This document shows, one piece after another, positions 51,153 through 53,898 of a stretch of DNA of 64,000 nt (positions within the stretch are counted from its first letter, which is position 1; each line of letters starts with the position of its first letter). The notes beneath the pieces were generated by a model, which saw only the letters and a list, made by a program, of their open reading frames with translations, was not told the origin of the DNA and searched no databases. This DNA is from Polaromonas vacuolata (GTDB lineage Bacteria > Pseudomonadota > Gammaproteobacteria > Burkholderiales > Burkholderiaceae_C). Position numbers and translations under genes: made by a program. The DNA lies in the NCBI RefSeq assembly GCF_012584515.1, contig NZ_CP051461.1:3773687-3837686 (forward strand), in the 5' to 3' direction.

Positions 51153-51782
51153 TCAGAGAGGTAGCTGGCCTTGAAACTTAAACACCGCGCGCGTGGCCCG
51201 TAAATTCGGCCAAAAGCGAACCTCTCGGCCATCTTGCAAGCCAAAGCTATCGAGAATGTGCAACTGGTTTTGCAACGCCAGCGCTTCAAAGTCGCGCAGC
51301 GTGCCGACACGAATATTCGGCGTGTCATACCACTGGTAAGGCAAAATTTTGGTGACTGGCATACGGCCGCGCAGCACGGCTAAACGATTCGGCCAATGCG
51401 CAAAATTTGGGAACGCCACGATGCCCATGCGGCCAACACGCGCCGTCTCTCTGAGCATGATCTCGGCATTGCGCAGATGCTGCAGCGTGTCTATTTGCAG
51501 CACCACATCAAATGAGTTGTCGGCAAACAGTGCCAAGCCTTCATCTAAATTGAGTTGCATGACGTTAACGCCACGCGCCACGCAGGCTTGTACGTTGGCA
51601 TCGCTAATTTCTACGCCATAGCCCGAGCAGCCGCGCTGATTGATCAGGTAGGCCAGCAATTCACCGGTACCACAACCGAGGTCAAGCACGCGCGAACCTT
51701 GTGGCACCAAGCGGGCAATTGAGAGCAAGTCAGCAGACGGCAACGGCAACGGCAACGGCGTAGCTTCAAACTGAGAATTCAT
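51153..51782 (-). CDS. metW: Methionine biosynthesis protein MetW
   Basis: A 209-residue SAM-binding methyltransferase-fold protein that partners MetX. Motif I is [15 protein letters not shown] at about 35-50, and the family-specific [11 protein letters not shown] and [13 protein letters not shown] are present. Its start codon overlaps the metX end by four bases (ATGA type), so the two are translated together. In bacteria with MetX/MetW, MetW is needed for or stimulates homoserine acylation. Confidence 0.93.
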
Positions 51783-52942
51783 AGCAGCACCTTGCTTTCG
51801 AAATAAGACCTGACAACACCTAGGTAACGCGTATCGTCGAGCAAAAATGCATCGTGGCCATGCGGCGCGTCTATCTCTGCATAGCTCACGTCGAGCTGGT
51901 TGTCTATCAAGGCCTTGACAATTTCACGGCTGCGCGCCGGCGCAAAACGCCAGTCAGTGGTAAAACTCACCAGTAAAAAACCGGCCTTGGCGACCGAGAG
52001 TGCCCGGCTCAAGTCGCCACCAAAGGCCGCGGCAGGGTCAAAATAATCGAGTGCTCGGGTGATCAGTAAATAGGTATTAGCGTCAAAGTATTCGGCAAAC
52101 TTGTCGCCTTGATGGCGAAGATAGCTCTCAATTTGAAATTCGATTTCTTGCGTTGAAAACCGGTAACCGCTGGCATGCTCAGATGAAATTTCGCGCAACT
52201 GACGGCCGAACTTTTCGTTCATCACATCATTGCTCAAATAAGTAATGTGACCAATCATGCGGGCGATACGTAGGCCACGCTTAGGCAGCACGTTGTGACG
52301 GCCGTAATGGCCGGCATGGAAGTCGGGATCGGTGACGATGGCGCGGCGTGCGACTTCATTAAAGGCGATGTTCTCAGCCGTCAGGTTGGGCGCGCTAGCG
52401 ACAACTACCGCGTGCCGCACGCGATCGGGATACTGCAGCGTCCAACTCAGTGCTTGCATGCCGCCCAGACTTCCGCCCATCACCGCAGCAAGCGTCTCTA
52501 TTCCCAGCGCATCAAGCAGCAAGGCCTGGACATTTACCCAATCCTGAACGGTCACGACCGGGAAATCCGCACCATAAATTTGCTGCGTATCAGGATTGGC
52601 CTGCATAGGGCCAGTCGATCCAAAGCAAGAACCTAAGATATTGACGCCAATAACGAAAAAACGATTCGTATCGACCGGCTTACCCGGACCAATCATGGTG
52701 TCCCACCAGCCTTCGGATTTCTTCACCGGCTGGCCAGCAGCGTCAAGGTAAACGCCGGCCACATGATGGGAGGCATTGAGCGCGTGACAAATTAAAACCA
52801 CGTTAGATTTATCGGCATTGAGCTCGCCGTAAGTCTCGTAGCTAATGTCGTAGGCGCGTATTGATTTACCGCTTTGCAGCAGTAATTCATTCGCAAAATG
52901 CATGGACTGGGGGGTGGGCGTTAATAGCAAATCGGAGGGCAC
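51779..52942 (-). CDS. metX: Homoserine O-acyltransferase MetX
   Basis: A 387-residue alpha/beta-hydrolase that acylates homoserine in methionine synthesis, using acetyl- or succinyl-CoA. Early motif [20 protein letters not shown], the nucleophile elbow [14 protein letters not shown] and the C-terminal [13 protein letters not shown], with His and Asp of the triad, are all present. The start is uncertain: GTG at 52942 gives [16 protein letters not shown], which aligns with family N-termini; TTG 52972 and ATG 52903 are alternatives. A SAM-II-like riboswitch and terminator lie upstream. Confidence 0.93.
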
Positions 52943-52983
52943 GTTAAAAATTCGCAATCCGCAGGCCAGCAATACCGACCCGC

Positions 52984-53022
52984 AAAAAATAAAACCCGGC
53001 GTCGCCTAAAGCAAATCCGGGT
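52984..53022 (-). terminator. Terminator in the metX leader (riboswitch expression platform)
   Basis: Arms AACCCGG and CCGGGTT around a 17-base loop, with a following TTTTATTTTTT run on the minus strand. No minus-strand gene ends just upstream of it, so it belongs to the metX leader. It lies directly 3' of the SAM-II-like aptamer. Confidence 0.8.
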
Positions 53023-53031
53023 TGGGGAGAT

Positions 53032-53084
53032 TCATCTTTAGCGGTACTTTTAAAGCGCCCGCAAGGTCAGGAAATCGGCGCTAA
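53032..53084 (-). promoter_or_regulatory. Probable SAM-II riboswitch aptamer upstream of metX
   Basis: Read on the minus strand, the leader has AGCGCC-GATTT near the 5' end, then CCTGACC, TTGCGGGCGCT and TAAAAGTACCGCTAAAGATGA spaced as in the SAM-II (SAM-alpha/metA) family. The P1 stem AGCGCC/GGCGCT is at 53077-53082 and 53054-53059, and the conserved GCTAAAGA lies 3' of it. It is placed before metX, a classic SAM-II target. High S-adenosylmethionine should stabilise the pseudoknot and lower metX expression. Identification is by memory of the consensus, not by a covariance search. Confidence 0.75.
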
Positions 53085-53087
53085 ACC

Positions 53088-53093
53088 AGTATA
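53088..53093 (-). promoter_or_regulatory. Candidate extended -10 element for metX
   Basis: TATACT on the minus strand is preceded by TG one base away (TGCTATACT), an extended -10. Transcription from it would begin just at the riboswitch P1 stem. The -35 region is not clear. Confidence 0.5.
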
Positions 53094-53099
53094 GCAAGA

Positions 53100-53403
53100 C
53101 ACGTTTGAAACGCCTAAAACTAGCCAACTACTTTAGATCAATTTTGCTGGCGACTGGCACTGCTTGTAGTGAGAAAAGAGTGACGCAACACTTACCATTT
53201 AAAAAAATATGACTGCCGTTTAGGTGTTAGCGATAGTTGCTTGTAAATAAGCTATCTGAAGCATAATGCAATGACATATATGCGTAGCATGTATGCAAGT
53301 TAGGTGATCGGTCAGTTTCGCGTGCTACAGCGGTACGTTCAATGATTTGTTGTGCTATCGGGACCCCATCGCTTTTGTCATTGTGTTTTAGAGGAGTCCC
53401 TTC
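53100..53403 (+). other. Upstream region and leader of the RNA-binding protein gene
   Basis: About 300 bp between the metX promoter and the RNA-binding protein start. It is AT-rich and contains TTGTAA (53241-53246) and CATAAT (53262-53267), a poorly spaced promoter candidate for the downstream gene. A GAGGAG site precedes the ATG at 53404. If that promoter is used, the 5' leader would be about 130 nt, but I saw no recognisable RNA motif in it. Confidence 0.4.
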
Positions 53404-53898
53404 ATGGGCAACAAACTTTACGTCGGCAATCTGCCGTACTCAGTTCGCGACGAAGATTTGCAACAGTCTTTCGGCCAGTTCGGTGCTGTCACCAGCGCTA
53501 AAGTCATGATGGAACGCGACACCGGTCGCTCCAAAGGCTTTGGCTTTGTTGAGATGGGCAATGATGCTGAAGCACAAGCTGCTATCAATGGCATGAACGG
53601 TCAGCCTTTGGGCGGCCGTAGCGTCGTTGTGAATGAAGCCCGTCCAATGGAAGCGCGTCCTCCACGCACTGGCGGCTTTGGCGGTGGTGGTGGCGGTGAT
53701 CGCTCCGGCGGTGGTGGATACGGCGGCGGCGGCGGTGATCGTTCCGGCGGTGGCGGCTACGGCGGTGGTGGTGATCGTTCTGGCGGCGGTGGTCGCTCCG
53801 GCGGCGGCGGTGGTGACGGTGGTTTCCGCAGTCCTTACGGCGGTGGCGGCGGTGGTCGCTCCGGTGGTGGTGGCGGCGGTGGACGCGGCGGCTATTAA
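53404..53898 (+). CDS. Glycine-rich RRM RNA-binding protein
   Basis: A 164-residue protein with one RRM at residues 1-80 (RNP2 LYVGNL at 4-9, RNP1 KGFGFVEM near 45) and a long C-terminal tail made of GGGG-Y, DRSGGG and GRSGGGG repeats with interspersed arginines (RGG-like). Such proteins occur in cyanobacteria and proteobacteria and are often cold-induced; RNA binding is secure, the role is not. The repeats are codon-biased to GGC/GGT and are prone to length change. Confidence 0.9.
   Translation: MGNKLYVGNLPYSVRDEDLQQSFGQFGAVTSAKVMMERDTGRSKGFGFVEMGNDAEAQAAINGMNGQPLGGRSVVVNEARPMEARPPRTGGFGGGGGGDRSGGGGYGGGGGDRSGGGGYGGGGDRSGGGGRSGGGGGDGGFRSPYGGGGGGRSGGGGGGGRGGY

Follow-up and report, generated by a model that had tools for sequence, protein, structure and literature searches.

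A SAM-II riboswitch with an intrinsic terminator and a likely antiterminator in the metX leader of Polaromonas vacuolata

The metX leader in the 64,000 nt stretch of Polaromonas vacuolata DNA analysed here (the window, the terminal part of a 3.84 Mb contig) is a SAM-II riboswitch followed by an intrinsic terminator, a known kind of element whose type is common in its clade; we infer its function from its sequence. Sequence and comparison together establish the aptamer, the terminator, the gene behind them and the complementarity between aptamer and terminator, and we hold it quite probable that the element is an OFF switch on metX-metW transcription. Three points are new: a proposed antiterminator that comparison supports, the likely identity of a published "metXZ" element with SAM-II, and the size of the gap left by Rfam. 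A broad collection of natural SAM-II attenuators for which a specific antiterminator is proposed would be useful for both mechanism and annotation.

The aptamer and its genes

Aptamer and terminator occupy 53096-52984 of the minus strand and are followed by metX and then metW, so that genes of methionine/SAM biosynthesis lie directly downstream (Table 1). The metX product scored 620.5 bits against NCBIfam MetX_succinyl (cut-off 560; homoserine O-succinyltransferase, MetX family), which upholds metX as the target named in the original prediction, and the metW product scored 240.3 bits against TIGR02081 (cut-off 189.5). The closest titled relatives of metX come from Polaromonas sp. metagenome assemblies, with protein identity of up to 87%. 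From the position of the extended -10 element TGCTATACT, the transcript would be expected to begin at approximately the first P1 base, in agreement with the start at the aptamer edge given in the original prediction. Using our own list of -10-like hexamers, one was found 8-20 bases upstream of the aptamer core in 86/90 Comamonadaceae-type rows vs. 9/82 other rows. A simple scanner detected no two-hexamer promoter at the window leader, and no terminator in 52500-53600, where its loop limit was 8 and the loop of the window terminator is 17.

All the pieces of the SAM-II consensus that had been read in the metX leader are where they were said to be, on the minus strand: a 6-bp P1 aligns and closes a loop that starts with GAUUU, and the UUGC and GCUAAA strands of the pseudoknot P2 are both present, with three P2 pairs possible in the window (53062-53060 with 53041-53043). 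The base after GAUUU is C in the window and G in most of 48 relatives. An Rfam scan of the whole window at gathering scores gave no match. The covariance search suggested in the original prediction did return the expected family, RF00521, as the sole Rfam match under the E-value threshold in 52850-53200 (full model length, E 0.0035 in 351 bases), but at 23.0 bits, under the gathering cut-off of 36. Across the whole genome (3.84 Mb) no RF00521 match is better (E 0.009, as against 0.51 for the second best). Only 2/61 relatives searched, the own genome counted, passed the cut-off; among the remaining 60, 41 (picked by score) yielded 45 loci in which the same aptamer block could be read. A model (R1, with P1 as its sole modelled helix) built from an alignment (A1) of 48 relatives, the window left out, scored the window element at 60.6 bits; the runner-up within the window reached 12.1 bits and that in the own genome, a metK element described below, 21.8 bits. 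P1 and P2 pairing held in 94.0% of 432 cells (48 relatives), against 18-53% when slid. Since most pairs are invariant, covariation in P1 and P2 is small (two pairs change both sides), and two P2 core pairs that are invariant in all 48 relatives are uninformative in this respect.

The available text of Corbino 2005 (PMC1273637) describes a start site that usually lies a few bases upstream of P1, and the window element resembles SAM-II (SAM_alpha, RF00521) as given there in its P1, GAUUU, UUGC, GCUAAA, P2, P1-edge start, terminator and methionine gene, whilst it differs from the RF00521 consensus in a shorter L1 and in its score under the Rfam gathering value.

Table 1. Features of the metX leader and the adjoining genes (positions in the window)
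Feature	Position	Strand	Basis
Extended -10 promoter element TGCTATACT	53088..53096	-	read from sequence
P1 5' strand AGCGCC	53077..53082	-	RF00521 and R1 alignments, sequence reading
L1 GATTT, SAM-II core	53072..53076	-	RF00521 alignment, sequence reading
TTGCGG, P2 pseudoknot 5' strand (TTGC 53064-53061)	53059..53064	-	read from sequence; core pairs counted in relatives
P1 3' strand GGCGCT	53054..53059	-	RF00521 and R1 alignments, sequence reading
CCGCTAAAG, P2 3' strand and ligand-binding strand (GCTAAAG 53042-53036)	53036..53044	-	RF00521 and R1 alignments
Proposed antiterminator 5' strand CGCTAAAGATGAATC	53029..53043	-	predicted pairs with 53017-53003, comparative support
Proposed antiterminator 3' strand GATTTGCTTTAGGCG, within terminator hairpin	53003..53017	-	predicted pairing
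Terminator hairpin, 7-bp stem and short apical helix, -16.1 kcal/mol	52993..53023	-	predicted fold
Terminator arms AACCCGG / CCGGGTT	53023-53017 / 52999-52993	-	read from sequence
Terminator U-tract TTATTTTTT	52984..52992	-	read from sequence
metX, start GTG 52942 or TTG 52930 (listed ORF begins 52972)	51779..52942	-	NCBIfam
metW, overlaps metX end	51153..51782	-	NCBIfam TIGR02081

The ligand-binding strand as a proposed antiterminator

The terminator of the original prediction is supported by its arms and U-tract (TTATTTTTT); folding predictions, backed by comparison, also indicate that it would compete with an alternative fold. In the window, CGCUAAAGAUGAAUC (53043-53029) pairs with 53017-53003 inside the terminator through 14 predicted pairs with one unpaired base per side, a helix that is predicted to be mutually exclusive with the terminator stem unless knotted and that uses the strand which SAM binding would lock into P2. 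Nascent folding from 53084 passed from P1 alone to P1 plus this helix at 78-86 nt, then to the terminator from 90 nt. An RNA ending before the 3' arm was predicted to fold into P1 plus the helix at -20.6 kcal/mol; with CCGCUAAAG blocked as in the bound state, the fold reached -13.5. The folding models thus point to the ligand-binding strand GCUAAAG and its flank, paired with the terminator hairpin interior, as the likely antiterminator. Because the finished terminator hairpin is predicted to be more stable than the antiterminator, antitermination would have to rest on kinetics and not on equilibrium. A 4-bp pairing of aptamer CGGG with CCCG of the terminator arm was rejected as a candidate, since in the window's family the GC-rich strand paired no better with own than with other terminators; a pairing of the U-tract with CCGCUAAAGAU in the full-length fold was set aside, since it requires bases made past the termination point.

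We propose that RNA polymerase would start at the P1 edge, so that the aptamer is the first part to be transcribed. When SAM is scarce, GCUAAAG and the adjoining downstream bases would pair with the emerging terminator interior before the 3' arm of the hairpin is made, which would delay the terminator and allow metX to be read. With SAM bound, GCUAAAG would be held in P2, no antiterminator could form, and the terminator would fold and stop transcription. SAM binding, the direction of control and actual termination are the presumed parts of this scheme.

Comparison of own with unrelated terminators supports the pairing, the controls being mechanical hairpins with a T-run, many of which resemble coding sequence. 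In a first test against 51 unrelated terminators, own terminators paired at -11.77 vs. -6.70 kcal/mol and 64% of 88 rows fell in the best 5%; the window ranked 0.059 against the same controls, with a shuffled-loop p of 0.11. A cleaned test counted L047, L136 and L140 with the window's family and left out two doubtful pattern hits (in L030 and L040) and a control from L067 that is the terminator of a truncated riboswitch. It comprised 93 rows of the window's family, where own and control pairings were -11.72 vs. -5.64 kcal/mol and 61/93 rows fell in the best 5% (58 stricter controls), and 77 rows of other families, where they were -10.86 vs. -7.16 kcal/mol with 33/77 in the best 5%, here against 12 stricter controls only. 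Looser controls gave 54/93 (151 controls) and 32/77 (44 controls) in the best 5%, respectively, and the window's own rank was 0.017 with the stricter set (58) and 0.04 with the looser (151). Outside the stricter comparison, the window's own pairing is thus of moderate strength. The motif TTTRGC, the GCUAAA complement with wobble allowed, occurs in 52/93 own hairpins vs. 4/58 stricter controls in the window's family and in 16/77 vs. 0/12 in other families. In nascent folding, counted as positive when at least 5 of 7 bases (GCUAAA plus one) were paired into the terminator interior, the GCUAAA strand paired in 81/93 rows of the window's family vs. 32/465 control folds, and in 38/77 rows of other families vs. 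38/385. A further sample, 69 order loci collected once the hypothesis had been framed (67 rows with a terminator, 7 without), gave -10.7 vs. -8.0 kcal/mol and placed 25% of its 67 terminator-bearing rows among the best 5%; since the effect in this order-wide sample is smaller, we regard the antiterminator effect as weaker outside the window's family.

Compensatory changes between the two strands support the antiterminator, weakly when relatedness among the rows is taken into account. The position 3' of GCUAAA (X) and its loop partner (Y) are G-C in 45 rows, G-U in 26, C-G in 9 and U-A in 1, and do not pair or are of doubtful register in 12 (G-G 5, U-G 5, G-A 1, C-U 1), in a count that dropped 16/109 rows without the pattern, the window among them, and did not thin rows for kinship; all five U-G rows have GCCCAGC as their loop, where another pairing register is possible. 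On a MetX tree of 59 rows, with the states of the window set by hand, X changes four times. Across the three independent well-supported pairs Y follows X in 2.3 on average and never goes the opposite way, and with only three such pairs a p of 0.05 is unreachable. Exchanging terminators between sisters made pairing worse in ~11/22 pairs, better in 4 and equal in 6 (median p 0.049, range 0.038-0.15). Among 13 rows of other families, the foreign terminators as good as the own were 0/12 for L040 and L045, 9/12 for L007 and 10/12 for L003; L045 combines CUAAACG with CGUUUGG.

An alternative, which we consider improbable, is that bound SAM acts mainly on translation and that the terminator is constitutive, as proposed for Sinorhizobium meliloti metA, where according to the available text of PMC9373788 a SAM-II that controls translation has a terminator behind it for which no response to SAM is predicted. 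The metX start lies ~94-106 bases 3' of the window aptamer, beyond the terminator, no clear ribosome site was seen near the aptamer, and the aptamer strand complements the interior of its own terminator better than that of unrelated ones, all of which speak against this alternative. No clear ribosome site was seen for the metX start either. The S. meliloti metZ riboswitch is a SAM-II predicted to act by transcription termination, with read-through mRNA reported lower under high SAM, but belongs to an alphaproteobacterium and to metZ (PMC9373788).

It is highly unlikely that the antiterminator of the window is instead another aptamer part, the GC-rich P2 5' strand (CAGCUUGCG), a proposal close to the guess of Leyn 2014. 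In other families duplex ranks would favour this strand as a second design; there it gave -10.7 vs. -7.2 kcal/mol with 34/77 rows in the best 5% (44 controls), 49/77 against the stricter controls, which were only 12, and where its complement GCGCAAGC occurs in 17/77 own hairpins vs. 0/44 controls; in the window's family, however, it gave -6.0 vs. -6.4 kcal/mol for controls with 0/93 in the best 5%, and nascent folding did not favour it in either set (1/93 vs. 70/465 control folds; 11/77 vs. 64/385). GC-GCAA-GC is a GNRA tetraloop hairpin and stable, and terminators may favour it for that reason.

Distribution in the order and the published metXZ element

R1 matched 215/300 genomes of the order in 111/140 genera (E 0.001 or better), a figure whose weaker matches may include the metK-type element, whilst the RF00521 cut-off was passed in 39/300 genomes drawn in the same way; both order-wide searches used stricter filters, by which weak matches can be lost. 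The Rfam threshold is thus indicated to hide SAM-II in most carrier genomes of the order, and because of this difference we regard the cut-off as a matter of curation and do not count it among the features that define the class. The aptamer pattern was present in 66/80 metX loci, 65 of them with a terminator by our rule; the exception, L104, failed solely on its T-run. Chance likeness next to an ordinary intergenic terminator, with no riboswitch at all, is scarcely credible: the sub-threshold Rfam score would fit it, but R1, from which the window was excluded, scores the element at 60.6 bits, and the matches in 215 genomes and the pattern in 66 metX loci also stand against it.

The 14 metX loci without the pattern comprise three that are truncated upstream (L067, L096, L110) and 11 that lack it (L062, L064, L082, L083, L088, L097, L103, L106, L107, L129, L130); L082, L106, L107 and L130 have a TATACT-like box a short distance 5' of the likely start codon, which would fit a loss of the leader. 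In 19/66 riboswitch-bearing metX loci (e.g. L066, L071, L072, L076, L084, L114) the stretch from the P1 3' strand to GCUAAA is ~12 or more bases longer, in most of them by a predicted additional hairpin in the aptamer linker. In the wider order the same aptamer stands upstream of metX-, metZ- and metH-like proteins, an assignment made by visual inspection of the translations.

In the available portion of Meyer 2009 (PMC2704228), SAM-II is reported as commonest in Alpha-, Beta- and Gammaproteobacteria. The accessible part of Corbino 2005 (PMC1273637) places SAM-II in alphaproteobacteria with few in other lineages, includes Bordetella bronchiseptica in its alignment and notes putative intrinsic terminators in many representatives; given this, and the terminators in 65 of the 66 aptamer-bearing metX loci, the view of the original prediction that a termination output in a betaproteobacterium is less usual is not supported. 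Leyn 2014 (PMC4239095), in the text at hand, reports SAM-II only in two alphaproteobacterial orders and publishes as novel, not as SAM-II, a "metXZ RNA regulatory element" of beta-proteobacteria, for which an antiterminator was guessed in GC-rich regions 3 and 4. It shares with the window element a place before metXW or metZ and the clades in which it occurs (there 10/11 Comamonadaceae genomes), and its conserved regions form a pseudoknot with a terminator after it. From this match in gene, clade, layout and pseudoknot, the metXZ element is very probably a SAM-II riboswitch of the window type, and the Rfam gap would explain why that survey, so far as its available text shows, found SAM-II in alphaproteobacteria only and a separate "novel" element (PMC4239095). 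The literature searched showed no printed correction of the metXZ element and, in the portions available, no antiterminator for beta SAM-II besides the guess of Leyn. A term search of the accessible text of a Bordetella RNase paper (PMC8386462) and of the TaRTLEt paper (PMC12121620) found no mention of SAM-II, and the parts of PMC3723493 and PMC2965389 at hand hold nothing on it beyond one reference.

On balance, we lean towards a wider reading in which the SAM-II riboswitches of Burkholderiales have in common an expression platform for which the literature searched gave no description, the terminator loop complementing one strand of the ligand-binding pseudoknot (in most cases GCUAAAG, on the 3' side), and the antiterminator would then be the ligand site itself; in which the metXZ element is the same riboswitch; and in which the same genomes hold a diverged SAM-II-like aptamer at metK, with GAGUUA in L1, whose ligand preference could differ.

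Further SAM-II-like elements

The metK element of the own genome lies outside the window, at G000:C1:3195474-3195578 (+) (locus L221 from base 276). It has a P1 of GUCGCC/GGCGAC, an L1 with GAGUUA instead of GAUUU, a GCAG::CUGC pseudoknot and GCUAAAGCG, and the aptamer is followed by a long hairpin with no U-run. The copy tested scored 16.0 bits with RF00521 and 13.0 bits with the SAM-II long loop model, far under the Rfam cut-offs. A model (R2) from an alignment (A2) of 22 genomes of the genus matched 47/300 genomes of the order, with MetK downstream in 19/30 loci read. The available portions of the literature searched contained no published description of a metK-linked element.

One member of the genus (L047, G024:C9:4194300-4197300) carries a second, diverged SAM-II with a terminator, and the protein downstream was not recognised as a methionine gene.

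Tandem SAM-II and SAM-II/SAM-V riboswitches are known, and in the available text of PMC9481103 the first SAM-II has a terminator, as in the window, where the aptamer is single. Tandem SAM-II-like aptamers were seen in L249, L250, L252, L253, L258, L259, L262, L269, L002, L030, L153, L167, L181, L191 and L198; a hairpin and T-run come after the first aptamer in most cases, and the second (often GAGUUAAUCGACAACUUGC) is situated just upstream of an open-reading frame, which in many of these loci encodes ~100 aa and begins MYDC or MFDC. No Pfam family was found for this small open-reading frame. A MATE-like transporter (named by eye) lies downstream in five loci read further (L002, L153, L249, L253, L256). 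Sub-cut-off matches to RF02424 (Burkholderia sRNA Bp2_287) fall on the strand opposite SAM-II in L191 348-484 (+), L167 332-502 (-) and L153 1431-1577 (+), so this family may be a wrong-strand reading of a SAM-II leader.
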